DNA of 49,318 bases from a virus: IMG/VR virus record IMGVR_UViG_3300026519_000490, positions 1 through 49,318 of that record; one strand, 5' to 3'. Of the stretch, positions 951 through 49,318 are shown piece by piece. Under the pieces are notes generated by a model that was given only the letters and a program-made list of their open reading frames with translations, made no database searches and was not told the DNA's origin. The translations under genes and the position numbers were made by a program. The stretch's first letter is position 1; each line of letters opens with the position of its first letter.

Positions 951-976
951 AAAAAAGAAACCCCTCAAGCGAGGGG
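951..976 (-). terminator. Rho-independent terminator
   Basis: On the minus strand, stem CCCCTCGCTTGAGGGG (six-base arms with a short loop) followed by TTTCTTTTTT. It ends the unit containing the 186-aa gene and the tiny frame after it. Confidence 0.85.
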
Positions 977-981
977 CGAAT

Positions 982-1047
982 TTACTTCTCTGTTCCATTT
1001 AATCTCTTTATTGCTAAACATATCCTACATTTACACCTTTCCCTCAT
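982..1047 (-). CDS. Possible 21-aa cysteine-containing peptide
   Basis: The ATG at 1047 overlaps the TGA of the upstream gene in the ATGA arrangement seen at many junctions here. The frame encodes a basic 21-aa peptide beginning MRERCKCRICLAIKRLNG, with a C-x-C-x2-C cluster, and stops 6 nt before the terminator stem. The coupling and codon content favour a real gene. The length makes this uncertain. Confidence 0.4.
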   Translation of the reverse strand: MRERCKCRICLAIKRLNGTEK

Positions 1048-1604
1048 GAGCGAGTAATATCCAGAACACCCGACATAGATTCCTCTACTTCATCACTTAC
1101 TTCCTCATCAAGCTGCTCCAAGGTGGCTTTCATAACCGCCATTATGATGGGGAGCATCTGCTTTGATGGTAGTCCGGACTTCTCTTGCAGCCTTTGCGAG
1201 ATCTTTACGGATAATTCTTTCCCCTTGCTAAAATTCATCAATTGGGTGAGATTGTTATTCCATATAGTATGCATCTTCAAGGCAGCAAGTCCCTCGTCAG
1301 TTGCTTGACCATTTACTAAATATTTTCCTTGTTTGTCGGATGCGATATCAAGCTGTTTGTCACCAGTCTCAATAGGGCGTCTCGATTTATCAACGATGGC
1401 ATCTTTATTGATTATAGACGTTTCATCATTATCTTGGTTAATGTATCTTTTAGTGGTTTCATTATCAGGTGTCACCCTTCTTTCTCTCTTAGTTGGCTCC
1501 TCAGCCTCCAAAAGATGTATATTTTCTAAGCCACGGTAACTCCTAACTCTTTCTGAAAATAACGCCTTTCTTATCTCTTCTCGTATCTCTCTTAAATGTG
1601 ACAT
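1044..1604 (-). CDS. Unknown protein under a start-codon hairpin
   Basis: A 186-aa charged protein with no recognised domain. It starts with a basic amphipathic helix (SHLREIREEIRKALFSE), has a polar middle and ends acidic (LEQLDEEVSDEVEE). A GGAGGGG ribosome binding site lies 5 nt before ATG 1604. Both the last part of this site and the ATG lie in the 3' arm of a perfect 18-bp inverted repeat, and an ACTATTTA element like those before the structural genes lies in the loop. This suggests a late, possibly virion-associated protein whose translation is blocked on read-through mRNA. The role is inferred from control signals only. Confidence 0.75.
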   Translation of the reverse strand: MSHLREIREEIRKALFSERVRSYRGLENIHLLEAEEPTKRERRVTPDNETTKRYINQDNDETSIINKDAIVDKSRRPIETGDKQLDIASDKQGKYLVNGQATDEGLAALKMHTIWNNNLTQLMNFSKGKELSVKISQRLQEKSGLPSKQMLPIIMAVMKATLEQLDEEVSDEVEESMSGVLDITRS

Positions 1605-1664
1605 TTAGACCCCTCCGACTCTGTGTGTTCTAAATAGTGCCTGAAAGGGTCTAAATGTCACATT
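1595..1664 (-). repeat. Perfect 18-bp inverted repeat around the start of the 1604 gene
   Basis: The arms are 1595-1612 (AATGTGACATTTAGACCC on the plus strand) and 1647-1664 (its exact reverse complement), separated by 34 nt. In mRNA the stem would bury the ATG at 1604-1602 and part of the GGAGGGG site. Each arm is itself nearly palindromic (AATGT-G-ACATT), so the arms could also be protein-binding sites. The upstream arm includes the stop codon of the M15 peptidase gene. Confidence 0.85.
1631..1638 (-). promoter_or_regulatory. Candidate late promoter element (ACTATTTA)
   Basis: The minus strand reads ACTATTTA, ending 27 nt before ATG 1604. The same octamer or ACTAATTA precedes the sheath, tube, neck and other structural genes. 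Here it sits in the loop of the inverted repeat. Confidence 0.45.
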
Positions 1665-2233
1665 AACTTAAAGGCATAATGCCACGGCTCATTGGGAACG
1701 TTATTGAAGAAGCCGTAAAGAGGGGCATTACTCTGAAGCCACCACGATAGCCTTGTTGGGCACCTAACTCCACCTTTTACTTTTTTGCAATATCTGTTTG
1801 AATAGAATTTTTTATTTATCTTTCCGTTTGGTATTATTAAAGTTGTGCCAGATAAGTCAATTGCTAAGCCTAACTGGTGCGCACTCTTCCCAGCTACGGC
1901 AGCGATCGCCCCCAATTTTCTACGAAGAGCTTGCTGTTCCTTGCTAGTCCGAAAGGCAGAGTTTACCTGAAGCGTGAAACCAGCTTTTTTAGCCTTTTTG
2001 GCTAATTTGACGAACTGTATAGCAGCGGTCTTTTCCAGCTTAAAGAAACCACCATCCTTCCGCCTGAATGGAATCGTAGTGATGTTTATAAATCGTCGTT
2101 CCCCTTTGAAATATATTTCGACAGGTTCATCATAATTAATATCGTAATCCATGCTTGTCTTCAGATAGCAGGAATCATTATTCGCCGAGTTTGTGCTCAG
2201 GAGTAATGCTAAAATTATCTCTCTTGTAGCCAT
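1658..2233 (-). CDS. M15B D-Ala-D-Ala carboxypeptidase (VanY-like)
   Basis: Predicted zinc peptidase that cleaves peptidoglycan stem peptides. The family motifs are in order: SAFRTSKEQQAL, then GKSAHQLGLAIDL (zinc His and Asp in SxHxxGxAxD) and the terminal EPWHYAF (catalytic Glu and third zinc ligand). I choose ATG 2233 because AGGGGG lies 9 nt before it; the frame is open upstream but overlaps the previous gene. From 2233 the N-terminus MATREIILALLLSTNSA is a short, weak signal-peptide-like stretch, giving 191 aa. It follows the MopE/VWA lipoprotein by 13 nt. It may be a second lysis enzyme besides the amidase, or a virion or periplasmic cell-wall enzyme. Confidence 0.85.
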   Translation of the reverse strand: MATREIILALLLSTNSANNDSCYLKTSMDYDINYDEPVEIYFKGERRFINITTIPFRRKDGGFFKLEKTAAIQFVKLAKKAKKAGFTLQVNSAFRTSKEQQALRRKLGAIAAVAGKSAHQLGLAIDLSGTTLIIPNGKINKKFYSNRYCKKVKGGVRCPTRLSWWLQSNAPLYGFFNNVPNEPWHYAFKLM

Positions 2234-2246
2234 TTTATTTGTCCCC

Positions 2247-4079
2247 CTATCTAAGACATATATCTGTAAAAACATCCTTTAGTTTTCTCGTGTACTCGAA
2301 TGGGTTTGGCGGTTCTAGGGGGATCAGCCTTCTTGGTTCAAAAAAAGTTGGTTGATCCCACATCCCGAAAAAATTAGGATGAGTAAAAACAAAAAGCTCA
2401 AATCTATCACCAGCAACACATTCTCCGACCATACACCTCGCGGTGCTTATGGCAACATCATCCTCGTCATTGCCGACCCATGTCTGTGGAGCTTCATCTG
2501 TCATCAAGACCAGATATGGATATGCATCGCCCCTCCATTCAATGCCAAGAGGGTTGGTTTCAAGCGATAAATCATGGATAACATCATAGCTTGGCTCCTC
2601 TGGGGGATACTCGCACACAACAGAGTTAAGGCTCAAGAGAAACTCATCAACGCCAACAATGTTTGTTATCAAAGTGTATGGTGTGTTAGGTCCATTCTGA
2701 TCAATGATATAAGGAAAAATAACTAATGAAAATTTATGATCTGAACGCCTCAGATCATCAACATAGGCACCTAGTCCTTGCGCGATTGCTACGACATAAT
2801 CGCACATAGAGTTCGAGCCATCGATTGCAAAAACCATATCCACTTTCTCGTGAAGATTTAAGCCCTCGTCAATTTCACCATCGCAATCATTATCAATACC
2901 ATCACACACCTCTTCCGACGGTTCTATTGCTCCGATACAATCGGACCACAGCCCTACCTCGCATACTTGCGAACCAAGCCGACACAACCCAAACGATTCG
3001 CCACTTCCACAACTCCTCTCTATGTTATCAATATTCCCATCACAATCATCATCATAATTGTTGCAGATTTCTTGACTGTTTCCGACGTACAAACAATCAC
3101 CCCATTCTCCATCTGAGTTACACTCTTCTATACCAGTGCCGCACCCCAGGTAATCCCCTGATACCCTGTCGATAGTATCTCCTGTACATATCCTGAAGTC
3201 TCCCGCAAAGCACAGGCAGCCCTCGTCCACCTCTCCGTCGCAGTCATTGTCTAAGCCGTCGCAAATTTCTAATGATGGGGTCGGTGCGGTGCACCCACTC
3301 CACCCGCCGTTGGAGCAATACTCAACGCCTATGCCACATGCCGTACTGCACTCCTTTACTAGTCCATCATCTATTGCACCATTACAATCATTATCGAGCC
3401 CGTCGCAAGCTTCCGGCACCGGAATAATAGCCCCAAAGCAATACATTTCACCATTGATACAATAATTGATCCCGGCGGTACAAGTTCCCATCTCCCACAG
3501 ATTGCATAACTTTCCATTATCTGCGATGTCCTCATCGATCTGACCATTACAATTGTTGTCTCTGCCGTCACACACTTCAGGTGCCACTAGTGACTGCTGA
3601 GGGTTGAAGTCGTTACAATCATTGCATTTCATGACGCCATCTTTATCGTTATCTGTTAATTCAGATGCTGGTATAACCCCATCGCAGTTGTCGTCTACAC
3701 CATTACACCTCTCGTTCGATAGAGGATTGATCTCTATATCTCCGTCGTCACAATCGCCGCCACATACGGTGAAGCCATCGCGATCTTCGTCAAAGCCATT
3801 GTCTACTTCGCCATTGCAATCGTTGTCCTGCCCATCGCAAATCTCTGGGGCGGCTACGACGTAATCATAGCAGAACACCCTAAAATCATCATCACATCTA
3901 GTCTCCCCGAGGTGGCAGTTACCAAGAAAAATTTGCTCCGACAGGGCATCTTCCCCCAGGATTAGACCGCCGTCAACAACATAACAAGGCTGAGAAATAG
4001 GACAGACTTTGAAAACTTCTTCACTACAACTACAGCCAAGCGGCATTACTAGAAACAGAAACAACATTAAAAACTTCAT
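2247..4079 (-). CDS. Lipoprotein with seven MopE-type repeats and a VWA domain
   Basis: A 610-aa protein. ATG 4079 is chosen because GGAG precedes it and because it opens a clean lipoprotein signal, MKFLMLFLFLVMPLGC. Residues of about 55-410 carry seven cysteine/aspartate repeats of the form (E)(I/V)CDGxDNDC(N/D)GxID, matching the putative metal-binding repeat of MopE-like proteins. From about residue 412 a von Willebrand factor A domain follows (VDMVFAIDGSNSMCDYV), with an intact DxSxS metal-ion adhesion site. Known family members are surface or secreted proteins of myxobacteria-like bacteria. A phage copy may be acquired from the host and could act at the cell surface in adhesion, exclusion or Ca binding. 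No homologous phage role is known to me. Confidence 0.85.
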   Translation of the reverse strand: MKFLMLFLFLVMPLGCSCSEEVFKVCPISQPCYVVDGGLILGEDALSEQIFLGNCHLGETRCDDDFRVFCYDYVVAAPEICDGQDNDCNGEVDNGFDEDRDGFTVCGGDCDDGDIEINPLSNERCNGVDDNCDGVIPASELTDNDKDGVMKCNDCNDFNPQQSLVAPEVCDGRDNNCNGQIDEDIADNGKLCNLWEMGTCTAGINYCINGEMYCFGAIIPVPEACDGLDNDCNGAIDDGLVKECSTACGIGVEYCSNGGWSGCTAPTPSLEICDGLDNDCDGEVDEGCLCFAGDFRICTGDTIDRVSGDYLGCGTGIEECNSDGEWGDCLYVGNSQEICNNYDDDCDGNIDNIERSCGSGESFGLCRLGSQVCEVGLWSDCIGAIEPSEEVCDGIDNDCDGEIDEGLNLHEKVDMVFAIDGSNSMCDYVVAIAQGLGAYVDDLRRSDHKFSLVIFPYIIDQNGPNTPYTLITNIVGVDEFLLSLNSVVCEYPPEEPSYDVIHDLSLETNPLGIEWRGDAYPYLVLMTDEAPQTWVGNDEDDVAISTARCMVGECVAGDRFELFVFTHPNFFGMWDQPTFFEPRRLIPLEPPNPFEYTRKLKDVFTDICLR

Positions 4080-4108
4080 TACTTCTCCGTCCTTGTTATT
4101 TAAAAAGT

Positions 4109-4369
4109 TCATCTGTCCGCCCCACAGCCAACAGCACATGAGCTTCCAGCGTGAGATGTCGCGGACAACGCCCTAGCCTCCCCAAGGTTGCAAGGTCTCG
4201 AGCATCCCGTGGTGCTGTGGGCACAGCGCCTAACCCAACAATCTCCAAAAGCGCAGGCGTGCTTCGCTAAGTTCCTTGGAGGACTTTTTTTATATTTGAG
4301 CACAAATAACACCACCTCTACTATAATTAAGCCTGCTGTTAAGAGCAATAACCAAAAAAATAATATCAT
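4109..4369 (-). CDS. Possible membrane protein with Cys-rich tail
   Basis: The frame starts at ATG 4369 with AGGGA 6 nt upstream. It encodes one N-terminal membrane helix (ILFFWLLLLTAGLIIVEVVL) and a basic segment, then a cysteine-rich tail (CAFGDCWVRRCAH and similar). The tail lies entirely in a GC-rich island unlike its surroundings, so the frame may be fortuitous over a structured RNA or inserted DNA. If real, a small membrane protein next to cell-wall genes could be a lysis accessory. The family is not recognised. Confidence 0.4.
   Translation of the reverse strand: MILFFWLLLLTAGLIIVEVVLFVLKYKKSPPRNLAKHACAFGDCWVRRCAHSTTGCSRPCNLGEARALSATSHAGSSCAVGCGADR
4130..4280. other. GC-rich island, possible structured RNA or insertion
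   Basis: Roughly 60% G+C by hand count over 4141-4260, while flanking DNA is visibly A/T-rich. It contains self-complementary pieces such as GCTGTG-CC-CACAGC and a TTGCAA palindrome, but no tRNA cloverleaf could be drawn. Confidence 0.4.
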
Positions 4370-10403: not shown

Positions 10404-10432
10404 ACTATACCATCATTTTCGTTTGCTGTCAA
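10404..10432 (-). promoter_or_regulatory. Sigma-70 promoter
   Basis: Minus strand TTGACA (10432-10427), 17-nt spacer, TATAGT (10409-10404), giving a leader of about 13 nt that contains the GAGGTGA site of the zinc-knuckle gene. The -35 box overlaps the tail of the preceding terminator. Confidence 0.8.
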
Positions 10433-10457: not shown

Positions 10458-10486
10458 TCTTCGATTTCTTCCCCTCTTTATGAGAA

Positions 10487-11245: not shown

Positions 11246-11253
11246 TAAATAGT
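11246..11253 (-). promoter_or_regulatory. Candidate late promoter element (ACTATTTA)
   Basis: Minus strand ACTATTTA, 31 nt before ATG 11215 of the acidic repeat protein. It is one of seven exact ACTA(A/T)TTA copies found before late-type genes. Confidence 0.4.
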
Positions 11254-20286: not shown

Positions 20287-20318
20287 ACAACAACAAGCCC
20301 TATAGGGCTTGTTGTTGT
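20287..20318 (-). terminator. 32-bp perfect palindrome, terminator or attenuator
   Basis: The left half is ACAACAACAAGCCCTA and the right half is its exact reverse complement. It lies between the 87-aa gene and the GroES-like gene. The downstream side is GTT-rich rather than a pure T-run, so termination may be partial, and no new promoter is seen before the GroES-like gene. Confidence 0.65.
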
Positions 20319-26176: not shown

Positions 26177-26208
26177 AAAAGGAAAGGGCTTTAAAGCCCT
26201 TTCCTTTT
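26177..26208 (-). terminator. 32-bp perfect palindrome with T-tail
   Basis: The left half is AAAAGGAAAGGGCTTT and the right half its exact reverse complement. On the minus strand the stem ends in CCTTTTT, fitting a terminator after the SSB gene. The symmetric A/T tails would allow function in both directions. No promoter is visible between it and uvsX. Confidence 0.75.
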
Positions 26209-37343: not shown

Positions 37344-37361
37344 TTTGCTTCTCCACGAATG

Positions 37362-37369
37362 TAAATAGT
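37362..37369 (-). promoter_or_regulatory. Candidate late promoter element (ACTATTTA)
   Basis: Minus strand ACTATTTA, 18 nt before ATG 37343, immediately after the terminator. It would drive the tape-measure unit. Confidence 0.45.
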
Positions 37370-38397: not shown

Positions 38398-39609
38398 CTA
38401 GGGGGTCTTTTTCCATATTAAGGCTAACTTTCCGCAATCCCATATTTTACCATACTTGTCGTTCTCTAGCTTCTCGTGCCTGTTATAAAGACTTCCCCTG
38501 TTATCATGATAAGAATAATCCGGCGGATGGTGAGCTAGAAAAACAAAGCCAGCTCTATCATATACCTCACTGTTTTCGTGCTTACATTCGACCCTAACTA
38601 CTACGCTAATTGGCTTAAACATCTTTATGAAATAGGATATTATCTTGTTGAGCGCGCCGTCAGTAGCCGTGTCAAGCTTTTCGCTGAATTTTTCAAGTGT
38701 CCACTCTGATTTGCCCGGGAAGCATCTACTGAATGTTGCTAAGCTTATCAATTCTCCTGTTTCGGCATGATATAAGCCAATATTAACCCCATGGATGTGT
38801 GTGACACCAAGCAAGTGGTTTTCTGTAAGAAACTCCTTAGCCTCGAGGGGTTGAGTTTCCCAGCAGGCGGTTCTCAACTTCCTTTTCGGTAGTACATTTA
38901 TCCTTCTCTTGATGAGTGATTTTACCACCTCTCGTTTATCTCTCCACTCGTTTTCTCGGATATGCACGATGCCGATCCCGAATTCTCTTTCGAAGAACGA
39001 ATCTTTATCCTTGTGGTAGTGTCTCCCTCTGCCTTGCTCCTCTGAATGCCAATAGATCCCATCATATTCTATCCCCACTCCATCATTCGGGCAATAAATA
39101 TCCAATTCATATCGTTTGTTGTTTTTTGAGAAATATTTGTTTCTCTCAACCGTCGTGTGTTCAGCGACAAATTCAGCCAATTGGGCTTCCCCTTTGCTTG
39201 TCTTCATTGTTTTGAGGGCACACTGAGGGCACCCCTGTCCGCATAAATGAGATCTGGGGAGTTGTTCATACCTACCATGTTTCTTACAGATTATGCTAAT
39301 TTTAACATTATTATTGATATAGTTGATGAGTTTATAGTCGTATGCTTTTCCGTGTCGTTCTCTTGCCTTCTTTTCGAACTCTTCGCTTGACATCCGATAA
39401 GCATTGCTGAATTTGGCATGGGTGCATTTGATACATCCATTCGAATAAAGGTGGCGGTTTGGTGTTTGCAAGAAATCACCATGCACTTCGCAGATTATCG
39501 TTACCTTTGTTATGGTATTGCTGTATTTTACTTTAGAATAATCATATCTTGCCCCATGAACATTTCTCGCTTTTGCGATAAATTCATCTGCCGAAATTGG
39601 TTTGCCCAT
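38398..39609 (-). CDS. EDxHD/Vsr-like homing endonuclease
   Basis: A 403-aa protein. Two N-terminal repeats of the type KARNVHGARYDYSKVKY, ICEVHGDFLQ, GCIKC are zinc-ribbon DNA-binding modules of free-standing homing enzymes. The nuclease domain follows: RYELDIYCPNDGVGIEYDGI, YWHSE, then YHKDKDSFF and GIVHIRENEWRDKREVV, the EDxHD arrangement related to Vsr nicking enzymes. The start is ATG 39609 (GGAGGG 7 nt upstream inside a hairpin). It is inserted between the tube and gp26-like genes. Confidence 0.85.
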   Translation of the reverse strand: MGKPISADEFIAKARNVHGARYDYSKVKYSNTITKVTIICEVHGDFLQTPNRHLYSNGCIKCTHAKFSNAYRMSSEEFEKKARERHGKAYDYKLINYINNNVKISIICKKHGRYEQLPRSHLCGQGCPQCALKTMKTSKGEAQLAEFVAEHTTVERNKYFSKNNKRYELDIYCPNDGVGIEYDGIYWHSEEQGRGRHYHKDKDSFFEREFGIGIVHIRENEWRDKREVVKSLIKRRINVLPKRKLRTACWETQPLEAKEFLTENHLLGVTHIHGVNIGLYHAETGELISLATFSRCFPGKSEWTLEKFSEKLDTATDGALNKIISYFIKMFKPISVVVRVECKHENSEVYDRAGFVFLAHHPPDYSYHDNRGSLYNRHEKLENDKYGKIWDCGKLALIWKKTP

Positions 39610-39633
39610 AAAAAAACCCTCCAAAGAGAGGGT
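39610..39633 (-). terminator. Hairpin with T7 run overlapping the ribosome site
   Basis: Minus strand ACCCTC-TCTTTG-GAGGGT with seven T residues, then ATG. It can end the tube transcript. The 3' arm contains the GGAGGG site of the endonuclease gene, so read-through mRNA would hide it. Confidence 0.75.
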
Positions 39634-40325: not shown

Positions 40326-40333
40326 TAAATAGT
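40326..40333 (-). promoter_or_regulatory. Candidate late promoter element (ACTATTTA)
   Basis: Minus strand ACTATTTA followed by CAGCGTATT, 29 nt before the tube ATG. It allows tube expression independently of the inserted endonuclease gene upstream. Confidence 0.45.
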
Positions 40334-40357: not shown

Positions 40358-41641
40358 TTATTTTTTAATATTATCAAAGTCGCTCTCCCACATTTCGACT
40401 ACGTTAAACCCTTGATTAATAAGCTCTTTTCGACGGTGAAGCCACTCTTCATACAGAGTAGTGTATTTCTTTTTATTGATAGGATTGATACCTTCCTTAT
40501 AGATCGTCGGATCTCCGTGCCAAAAACTACCCAAGAATTCATATACTGTATTTGTTTTTGGATCATAGCCATCAACCCTGTATTTGCCTACCTTAAATTG
40601 AGTTATCACCCCTTCAATTGAGAGTGAGTTTAGCCAAGCTATTTCCTTCTTTGAAATCCCAGCAGCTGAGCATCGAGGGCACCCGCAAGCTTGCAAAGTG
40701 TGGGTGCCTGGCGCTTGCATAAAGCTACCATGCTTTTCACACAAAATCTCTACCTTTGTTTTGCTGTTGATATAGTTTACCTTGGTATATGTATATTCGT
40801 CTCCATGTATCAACCTCGCATCTCTTATAAACTCTGCTTTCCCCTTAGCGAACTTTGTTCGCAATAGTGAATTGGCACACATTTTGCAGCCTTGCCCACT
40901 AAGGTGATTTGAGGCTTTCATTGAGAAACTTCCGTGCTCTGGGCAGATAATCGTAACCTTCTCAAGAGCTTTCTCATAGACTACATCAGCATATGAATAT
41001 TTATTACAATGAATTTTTGTGGCTTTCGCAATGAATTCTCCTGTATTCGACACTCTAGTACCGTTGTGCCCACACTTCGCACACCCCTTCTTACTCAAAT
41101 GATCGTTAGGATTCTGTAAGAACTCTCCATGTTTTTTGCATATTATTGTAACCTTTCTCCTGGCGCTAATATAATTTACTTTCGAATAATCATATTGTTT
41201 CCCGTGAATCTCTTCTGCTCGCGTGATAAATTGAAGTGTTGTTAGCACTTTTGATGGTGAACAGTCCATACAGCCACCGTTGTTCTGTAGATGTGCATAT
41301 GGCAGCTGATAGAATTTACCATGGAGAGCACATTTTATTATTATTTTTTCGCTCGATGAAAGATATACCATCAAAGAATAGTCAAACTTACCTCCATGCA
41401 CCCTTCTCGCTTTCTCTAGGAAAGAGGTTCGATTATTTTCCCTGTCCTCCTCTTGTTTACATTTACGGCACTTATTACCTTTAATATGGTTCAGCGGGAG
41501 CATAAAGAAGGTACCATGCTCATGACATAGGATCTCAATCTTCTTGTTTGCGCCATCATATTTTACTTCTGTGTAGTTATATTGTTCACCATGCACATTC
41601 CTGGCTCTCTCTATAAATTCCCCTGTTGTTAGTTTTTTCAT
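40358..41641 (-). CDS. Vsr-like homing endonuclease with zinc-ribbon repeats
   Basis: A 427-aa protein from ATG 41641. Five consecutive repeats (ARNVHGEQYNYTEVKYDG, ILCHEHGTFFMLP, KCRKC and so on) form DNA-binding zinc modules. The C-terminal nuclease domain has VGKYRVDGYDPKTNTVYEFL, GSFWHGDP, then YEEWLHRRKELINQGFNVVE and MWESDF. It is a mobile selfish gene lying between sheath and tube. The ATG is 6 nt after a TATGAT box, so its mRNA may lack a leader. Confidence 0.85.
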   Translation of the reverse strand: MKKLTTGEFIERARNVHGEQYNYTEVKYDGANKKIEILCHEHGTFFMLPLNHIKGNKCRKCKQEEDRENNRTSFLEKARRVHGGKFDYSLMVYLSSSEKIIIKCALHGKFYQLPYAHLQNNGGCMDCSPSKVLTTLQFITRAEEIHGKQYDYSKVNYISARRKVTIICKKHGEFLQNPNDHLSKKGCAKCGHNGTRVSNTGEFIAKATKIHCNKYSYADVVYEKALEKVTIICPEHGSFSMKASNHLSGQGCKMCANSLLRTKFAKGKAEFIRDARLIHGDEYTYTKVNYINSKTKVEILCEKHGSFMQAPGTHTLQACGCPRCSAAGISKKEIAWLNSLSIEGVITQFKVGKYRVDGYDPKTNTVYEFLGSFWHGDPTIYKEGINPINKKKYTTLYEEWLHRRKELINQGFNVVEMWESDFDNIKK

Positions 41642-41647
41642 ACAAAT

Positions 41648-41676
41648 ATCATAACATACTCTATTCAAAAAGTAAA
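41648..41676 (-). promoter_or_regulatory. Sigma-70-like promoter
   Basis: Minus strand TTTACT (41676-41671), 17-nt spacer, TATGAT (41653-41648). Predicted start at the ATG of the homing endonuclease. Confidence 0.5.
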
Positions 41677-47560: not shown

Positions 47561-49318
47561 TCAAAGTTTTAATAGGAAAACATTGTGCCCACAATCATGG
47601 ATCTGAGAAACCTTGGCGTTATTGGCAACTTGCTTCTCGGTCAGTCTAACCATATTATTTTCCGGCTTTGGCTGTTGTGCGCGGTATTTGAATCTGAAGT
47701 ATCGCACCTTTCCGTCTGTATAGAAGTATCCTGTGCTAGTAGGGGGTAGCTGCTCGAAGCCAGCCTTCTGATAAGCTCCACCTTCAGAGAATCGCCTATC
47801 TGCATATGTCAATATTTTTTCATAATTCTCTTGTCTTGCATATTCTAAAACTTTCTTAAAAATCTTTTGAAATCCACCAACCACAACTGTATTTAGAGAT
47901 GACGCAAACCTTGAAATTTCTAAAACATTATCGCCGTGCTTCTTCTGTATCGGCTTCTTCACCGACACGCATGAAACTAGCTCACCTTCAAAATATAGCC
48001 CAAAAGCTTTTTTATATCTTGTTTTACCTGCTATGTGAGTTTGATCAAAGAAGTTTCTGGATTCCTCAGAGGTTACTTCTTTTAATACACATTTGCGCGC
48101 AAATATGCGACGTGAAGTAACCCCTAAGCGATGGCGAATCATCGATTCAACAATACTTCTCTTGTCGCGCCATTCATCACTGAAGATATGGAACAATTGC
48201 ACACCCTTTGATGCACAAGCTTCGGTCTTTTCTTTGTGGTATTTCTTAGTAACAAAATCAAGCGTATGCCAATACAGACCATTGAATTCAACCGCGAAGT
48301 TCTTTGATGGCACATATACGTCTAATTCCTTTGGAGCAATCAGTGTTCGGTCTGAGGTCAGTACGTCTGGAGATATATTTTTAATAAAATCGGCAACCTC
48401 CTGTTCTGGTTTGGACGGTCCACTGCCAACACACTTGGGACACCCAGCATCGTTATTTATGTGATTGCCTGCTTTCTGAGTGAAGACACCATGTTCGGGG
48501 CACTTTATTTCGATTTTATTTAAAACATTCTCATAAACAGCTTCTGAATAATCATACGTTTTACCGTGCACCTTCTCAGCCTTCTCAATGAATTCTTCCC
48601 TCGACATGCTCAGTTTGTCCTTGACTGTCTGTAGACCGCACTCTTTACACCCTTGCTTACTGTGCACATGTGTGCTTGGTTTCATTTGAAACGTGCCATG
48701 TTCTCTACACGTAATTTGTGTCTTGGTCGTAACATTTTTATAGGTACTCTTGTCATAAATGTACTTGCTACCGTGAACGTCACGAGAAGATTCAATAAAG
48801 TCTTCGAATGTCTTTGGGGCATTCGGTGCGCATTTTGGGCATCCGTGTCCTCTACAGTGTTCTCTCCATTCTTGTCTGAATTCTCCATGTAGAGGACACC
48901 CCACTATCACTTTATCAGTGGTGCGAGTATAATTTACTCCCGAGTAATCATATTTGTCACCATGAAGTAGTCTTGCTTCATTGAGTTTTTTAATCTTATT
49001 CTTTGTCTCCTTGTTGAGTTCTCTTATAATAAAATCGGCAACCTCTTGTTCTGGCTTAGAGGATTGGGGGAAGCATTTTTTACATTGGCTGCCTCTCTCG
49101 TAAGCCTGTAAGGTCTTTCGAACTGGAGTGTTACAAACTCGACAAATAAAGTTTAAATGCTGGTGTTGTCGGGAAACATAATCGGAATAAGCAGTCGTGC
49201 ACTCAAATTCTCCTTCCCTCGATGAGACCCTCTCGCAGAACAGTTCCTCAGTCATAAGCGAAGACCTGTACATCTTATCTCTTGATGAGGGCGTATGCTT
49301 TTTACCATAGAAGTGGTT
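47561..49318 (-). CDS. EDxHD homing endonuclease with NUMOD3 motif, 5' end outside window
   Basis: At least 585 residues are visible. The frame has ATG codons at 49273 and 49255, but upstream it still reads NHFYGKKHTPSSRDKMYRSS, a NUMOD3-type DNA-binding helix, so the true start is beyond the right edge. Zinc-ribbon repeats follow (ARLLHGDKYDYSGVNY, GCPLHGEFRQ and three more sets). Then comes the EDxHD nuclease ELDVYVPSKNFAVEFNGLYW, KYHKEKTEACASKG and LFHIFSDEWRDKRSIVESMI, and a C-terminal domain that may act in maturation or DNA contact (GGFQKIFKKVLEYARQENYE). It is a selfish gene before the neck unit. Confidence 0.85.
   Translation of the reverse strand, partial: NHFYGKKHTPSSRDKMYRSSLMTEELFCERVSSREGEFECTTAYSDYVSRQHQHLNFICRVCNTPVRKTLQAYERGSQCKKCFPQSSKPEQEVADFIIRELNKETKNKIKKLNEARLLHGDKYDYSGVNYTRTTDKVIVGCPLHGEFRQEWREHCRGHGCPKCAPNAPKTFEDFIESSRDVHGSKYIYDKSTYKNVTTKTQITCREHGTFQMKPSTHVHSKQGCKECGLQTVKDKLSMSREEFIEKAEKVHGKTYDYSEAVYENVLNKIEIKCPEHGVFTQKAGNHINNDAGCPKCVGSGPSKPEQEVADFIKNISPDVLTSDRTLIAPKELDVYVPSKNFAVEFNGLYWHTLDFVTKKYHKEKTEACASKGVQLFHIFSDEWRDKRSIVESMIRHRLGVTSRRIFARKCVLKEVTSEESRNFFDQTHIAGKTRYKKAFGLYFEGELVSCVSVKKPIQKKHGDNVLEISRFASSLNTVVVGGFQKIFKKVLEYARQENYEKILTYADRRFSEGGAYQKAGFEQLPPTSTGYFYTDGKVRYFRFKYRAQQPKPENNMVRLTEKQVANNAKVSQIHDCGHNVFLLKL

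Follow-up and report, generated by a model that had tools for sequence, protein, structure and literature searches.

A putative late promoter inside a start-hiding hairpin in an uncultivated contractile-tailed phage

To our knowledge, the two-transcript switch of phage T4, in which a hairpin hides a gene start in long RNA and a late promoter yields RNA without the hiding strand, has been described so far in only a few cases, from T4 and related phages. At T4 gene e, the hairpin hides the start in the long early RNA, and late promoters in the region of the 5′ strand give RNA that lacks this strand; the hairpin cuts lysozyme synthesis about 100-fold, and some T4-like phages carry gene e without it (PMC3014915). 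The starts of endonuclease genes, namely I-TevI, I-TevII and segB of T4 and mobE of Aeh1, are masked in read-through RNA, and a late promoter located in the hairpin releases them (PMC2988022). T4 late promoters have just one box, lying one helical turn upstream of the transcription start, and an A+T-rich opening region, and the Aeh1-type late promoter found in the T4 family reads a/gCTAAATA, with a/gC at the first two positions (PMC2988020). In Bacillus subtilis, a large hairpin (20+ bp) has been proposed to block translation of read-through RNA of sigG, and it cannot form in the RNA made from the gene's own promoter (PMC5942855).

The record analysed here (the window) comprises 49,318 bases of a virus (IMGVR_UViG_3300026519_000490, positions 1–49,318), with the main genes on the minus strand. 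These include genes for UvsX, a gp32-like single-strand binding protein, tail tube, sheath and baseplate, as well as a chaperonin, a PolIII-type polymerase and ribonucleotide reductase. The identity of the tail tube to phage records is about 30% at best. Judging by its gene content, the source is a contractile-tailed phage with T4-family parts and without a close cultured relative.

The locus under study, the start of a 186-aa gene, is like T4 gene e in that the start would be hidden in the long RNA and freed by a late promoter that removes the 5′ strand, and also in that the gene can occur in a relative without the hairpin. It is unlike gene e in its promoter, which is ACTATTTA here and TATAAATA in T4, and in its product, which is lysozyme in T4 and a protein without known family here. 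The 186-aa gene also differs from the T4 and Aeh1 endonuclease genes in that it matches no endonuclease. An HNH endonuclease gene of the same clade appears to be a functional look-alike of I-TevI, I-TevII, segB and mobE, but it follows a phage tmRNA gene and has ACTATTTA as its putative promoter element. This element resembles the Aeh1 promoter in having one short box, no −35 element and an A+T-rich opening region, with AC at positions 1–2 and TA at positions 3–4 and 7–8; it departs from it at positions 5–6, which are TT and not AA. Unlike the 186-aa gene, sigG is a cellular sporulation gene that depends on other sigma factors, and the two share no common descent.

The hairpin at the start of the 186-aa gene

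The features of the locus are as follows.
1044–1604, minus strand: 186-aa gene under the hairpin, without known family and with one homologue (L003)
1658–2275, minus strand: VanY-like gene of the D-Ala-D-Ala carboxypeptidase family (Pfam PF02557, E 4e-13), upstream of the 186-aa gene on the same strand
1647–1664, minus strand: 5′ arm AATGTGACATTTAGACCC, which holds the TGA stop (1660–1658) of the VanY-like gene
1643–1646, minus strand: UUUC, 5′ half of the four-pair extension predicted by the RNA fold, with two G-U pairs
1631–1638, minus strand: ACTATTTA, putative late-promoter element in the hairpin loop, 26 nt before the ATG
1623–1625, minus strand: expected late transcription start, 6–8 nt after ACTATTTA, placed from the clade profile and T4 late promoters (PMC2988020)
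1613–1616, minus strand: GGAG, 3′ half of the predicted extension, which together with 1612–1610 makes up the GGAGGGG Shine-Dalgarno stretch (1616–1610)
1595–1612, minus strand: 3′ arm GGGTCTAAATGTCACATT, which holds the ATG (1604–1602) and codons 2–3
960–977, minus strand: intrinsic-terminator-like site just 3′ of the 186-aa gene
10404–10432, minus strand: sigma70-like promoter TTGACA-17-TATAGT with TG (consensus match), candidate source of early read-through RNA

The inverted repeat is perfect, as an earlier note on this DNA had described it: its arms of 18 nt are 100% complementary and lie 34 nt apart, the start codon is inside the 3′ arm, and the candidate promoter element occupies the loop. 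It is the only perfect inverted repeat in the window with 18-nt arms and a spacer of 3–150 nt, and first-order Markov simulations give a chance expectation of 0.0 for arms of at least 14 nt. The minus strand folds at −42.1 kcal/mol compared to −19.4 ± 3.1 for shuffles (z −7.4, 0/200). In the RNA, the 18 pairs are joined by four more between UUUC (1646–1643) and GGAG (1616–1613), two of them G-U, which gives a stem of 22 bp. The same note had placed only part of GGAGGGG in the stem; its pairing is borne out, but its extent was understated, since the four extra RNA pairs close the entire stretch. The stop codon of the VanY-like gene in the 5′ arm is a further feature that it did not contain. Each arm also includes an 11-bp palindrome, AATGTgACATT (1595–1605 and 1654–1664), which is probably a by-product of the arm sequence.

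A switch of the T4 type is characterized by a Shine-Dalgarno stretch and/or AUG paired in the 3′ arm in the long RNA, and by a late promoter located such that transcripts from it begin beyond the 5′ arm. The former is found here, and the latter is found at the level of sequence, with a putative start point. It had been expected that read-through RNA hides the ribosome site and that loop-initiated RNA does not, and folding of both transcript forms agrees with this: the Shine-Dalgarno stretch is predicted to be 0.9% unpaired in the read-through RNA versus 79–80% in RNA starting at 1627–1623. The AUG is still partly paired in the late form, in a weak alternative helix. When the stabilisation of the leader by RNA upstream of the expected start is measured (ddG), the window leader gives −26.9 kcal/mol. 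On the same measure, the T4 controls (T4 record L051) go in the same direction but are weaker, with −13.2 for the gene e hairpin and −14.4 for I-TevII, and T4 gene 49 gives no signal. Because gene 49 does not score, this simple measure misses some real cases.

Sequence matches around the locus fit early read-through, with sigma70-like sites upstream and a terminator just 3′ of the 186-aa gene. A terminator at 10459–10438 precedes the sigma70-like promoter at 10432–10404, and downstream of this promoter the best minus-strand terminator-like site in the terminator scan is 977–960. In G001, the genome that carries the homologue, a sigma70 consensus promoter (12/12, with TG) lies directly before a MopE-like gene that leads into the VanY and 186-aa genes. 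The corresponding 630-aa protein of the window (2247–4139), upstream of VanY, has six MopE-type metal-binding repeats, and the order is conserved in G001. The Rfam scan of the window gave no match. The 186-aa protein has no Pfam or PHROG family and no match in phage records or GTDB genomes, and its AlphaFold model is poor (pLDDT 51); for these reasons, no function is proposed for it.

ACTATTTA as a candidate late promoter

Besides the copy in the hairpin loop, the window contains three further copies of the element.
11246–11253, minus strand: ACTATTTA before a 242-aa gene, no such hairpin
37362–37369, minus strand: ACTATTTA before a start near 37346, no such hairpin
40326–40333, minus strand: ACTATTTA before the tail tube gene, no such hairpin

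All four copies are on the coding strand, and each lies 15–30 nt before a start. The count itself is close to what is expected (4 vs 2.5), and by this number alone ACTATTTA would not be called a promoter; that reading is overruled by strand, position and the relatives. The ratio of sense to antisense copies is 32:1 in a 193-kb contig (G005) and 15:0 and 9:0 in other relatives, with a balanced control for the reversed pattern, and over 80 related tail-tube loci (848 kb) there are 180 sense and 2 antisense copies (control 33:36). Without prior choice, ACTATTTA ranks first among the 8-mers enriched upstream of starts in three genome groups. The exact element precedes 31 of 43 tail-tube genes, and the exact element or a close variant precedes 41 of them. 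Its flanks have no −35 box, an A+T-rich and C-depleted stretch after the element, and purines 6–8 nt after it. The downstream flank of the element in the hairpin, GAACACACAG, contains more C than most members, which counts against the two-transcript switch.

The T4 consensus TATAAATA does not mark the late genes of the window, where its one occurrence is inside a gene. Tail-tube relatives in cultured phages (Phosso, XacN1) have no ACTATTTA before the tail-tube gene, and in literature searches for a phage late promoter of the sequence ACTATTTA or CTATTTA, nothing relevant was among the matches listed. A gp55-type sigma factor is encoded in the 193-kb relative (phrog_234, E 1.5e-7 and 1.1e-6), and searches of the window, G001 and further fragments gave none. 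Taken as sequence evidence, these patterns make ACTATTTA very probably a clade-wide late promoter; we infer its late timing from the genes downstream and from its kinship with T4-type late promoters.

Conservation and recurrence of start-hiding hairpins

IMG/VR yielded a single homologue of the 186-aa gene (L003 in G001, 51–54% identity), and searches with the 3′ arm and with the VanY protein gave no further samples. The gene order MopE-VanY-186 aa is kept in G001, with an exact ACTATTTA 24 nt before the ATG, and therefore conservation of the promoter is confirmed. The start of the homologue forms no hairpin. The earlier note had looked to conservation of both loop and stem, and here the loop element is kept at the same place but the stem is missing; it had also named arms that are not conserved beside a conserved gene as evidence against the switch, and this is the situation at the 186-aa gene. 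Because the sole homologue found keeps ACTATTTA but no hairpin, the switch at the 186-aa gene would be lineage-specific. Conservation of the stem is not strictly required of such a switch, several T4-like phages carrying gene e without one (PMC3014915).

Stabilisation of the leader was compared to shuffles at 57 promoter-bearing starts from ten genomes. Two outliers stand apart: the window has z −6.6, and a 175-aa HNH endonuclease gene in G005 has z −6.05; nearly all others are around 0. On average, promoter-bearing starts are no more structured than others (5.6 vs 5.4 paired bases), and the structure effect is confined to few genes. A further 180 sites added one gene, of 278 aa, with a 15-bp perfect stem (z −4.7).
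L140 3663–4525 (G010), minus strand: 278-aa gene whose start-hiding hairpin has ACTATTTA in its loop, on the strand opposite to its neighbours
The 278-aa gene has no Pfam, PHROG or phage-record match; by eye, the C-terminal part of its protein (IYRG, LSSWT, EQEVI) looks ADP-ribosyltransferase-like.

Conservation of the arms, looked for at the 186-aa gene, is seen at the HNH gene. Homologues with 90, 90 and 61% identity (the 61% form in two contigs) occupy the same position in three further phages, and the start hairpin with ACTATTTA in its loop is kept in all four phages, even where the protein is only 61% identical. Comparison of the 90% form with the 61% form shows five base pairs in which both partners differ but pairing persists (at −9, −8, −7, −6 and +3, with the A of ATG as 0); the other changes are one-sided. 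In G005, the HNH gene lies directly 3′ of the phage tmRNA gene and is followed by a copy of the tmRNA 3′ end. This arrangement of a one-piece tmRNA gene with the HNH gene directly behind it (L026 10056–11002 in G005, and L056–L059) is conserved in the four phages. Three of them repeat the tmRNA 3′ end (GATTC.CGCC.CCTCCA) beyond the HNH gene, which looks as though a mobile endonuclease gene had entered at the end of the tmRNA and rebuilt that end.

Among 1122 starts in the related phages, the four longest start-hiding stems all have ACTATTTA in the loop; the window's is the longest, and the HNH gene and the unrelated 278-aa gene belong to these four. Among 228 starts with the promoter, 6 have a stem scoring at least 11, compared to 3 among the 894 without it (Fisher p 0.003, with two HNH copies counted separately). 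The more distant G009 (IMGVR_UViG_3300017698_000036) has an enriched and strand-biased upstream element, (G/A)ATAATTA, and at L048 17387–17436 a 14-bp stem whose loop contains GATAATTA hides the AGGAGG site of a 216-aa gene. The recurrence of the arrangement in related viruses, at two or more unrelated genes, points to a real and reused timing switch of the T4 kind. It is moderately probable that this large uncultivated group of contractile-tailed phages has its own late promoter, ACTATTTA, and has built start-hiding hairpins repeatedly and independently around a late element, at the 186-aa, HNH and 278-aa genes and, with ATAATTA, at the 216-aa gene of a distant lineage.

Competing explanations and implications

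We consider it likely that the hairpin is a T4-type two-transcript switch that delays translation of the 186-aa gene. Early in infection, host-type polymerase starting at upstream promoters would transcribe the VanY-like gene and continue into the 186-aa gene, and in this RNA the 5′ arm would pair with the start region and hide the ribosome site. Later, a gp55-like sigma factor would bring the polymerase to ACTATTTA in the loop, and RNA starting at about 1625–1623, without the 5′ arm, would be translated. As the late promoter sits in the loop, late messages should lack the hiding half; we infer early read-through, late use of the 1625–1623 start and the resulting change in translation.

The main rival is translational coupling, in which a VanY ribosome ending at the TGA melts the stem, so that the 186-aa gene is expressed from the long RNA in proportion to VanY. 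The VanY stop is inside the 5′ arm, and when the arm is masked down to 1646 in folding, as a mimic of the terminating ribosome, the ribosome site is about 72% open. Nevertheless, the hairpins of the same type at the HNH genes come after tmRNA and not after a translated gene, so coupling cannot be their general purpose, and it would make a late promoter in the loop superfluous. Coupling is an unlikely account of the locus as a whole, but it may act together with the switch: since the 5′ arm holds the VanY stop, VanY ribosomes could open the stem, and the silence of the early RNA depends on how often VanY is translated. A stem of 22 bp is long enough for RNase III, and cutting of the long RNA could free the ribosome site or set mRNA stability independently of any late promoter; this is very unlikely, as it leaves unexplained why the longest start-hiding stems of the clade carry the late element in their loops.

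The perfect arms, and the lack of a hairpin in the homologue, would also fit a recent inverted duplication of the start region that has no regulatory role and has not yet decayed. The G-U pairs of the stem extension, the exact fit of the arms around the promoter, and the fact that the arrangement is seen again at unrelated genes, with compensatory changes, make this highly improbable. Finally, the 11-bp palindrome in each arm could suggest a device acting on DNA, either as paired operator sites for a DNA-binding protein or, for the stem, as a terminator of the VanY message. The palindrome is found exactly nowhere else in the window, its near matches are at chance level, and the homologue's gap does not contain it; the stem is not followed by a T-run and is not listed by the terminator scan. 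Both the operator and the terminator reading were rejected on these grounds, and such a device is extremely unlikely.

The two-transcript switch therefore remains the preferred reading. The earlier note had proposed that T4 logic evolved here with a different late promoter, and this is upheld in part, by the hairpin, the placement of the element, the promoter signature of the clade and the recurrence, but not by the homologue, which lacks the stem. It appears mostly right that a distant uncultivated clade follows the logic of T4 e and I-TevI, with a different late promoter and at other genes, and that this logic has arisen more than once. Its occurrence at unrelated genes, in a distant clade and with a different late promoter suggests that the switch evolves readily where late genes lie downstream of early ones. 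If true, a late promoter inside a hairpin would be a general timing device of phages, reached by convergence and recognisable from sequence alone. The signature, a late element in the loop and a start site in the 3′ arm, could flag genes of uncultivated phages that must not be made early, and ACTATTTA by itself would allow late genes to be assigned across many metagenomic phage contigs.

Two further observations concern other parts of the window. Three genes around the tail tube and sheath (38398–39624, 40358–41668 and 47561–49273) share an N-terminal pattern, ARNVHG.YDY..VKY ... HG.F, and appear to resemble free-standing endonuclease-like genes inserted among late genes. In addition, two perfect 16-bp palindromes without spacer lie in intergenic regions, at 20287–20318 before an 88-aa gene and at 26177–26208 before the UvsX gene, and are possibly terminators or processing sites.
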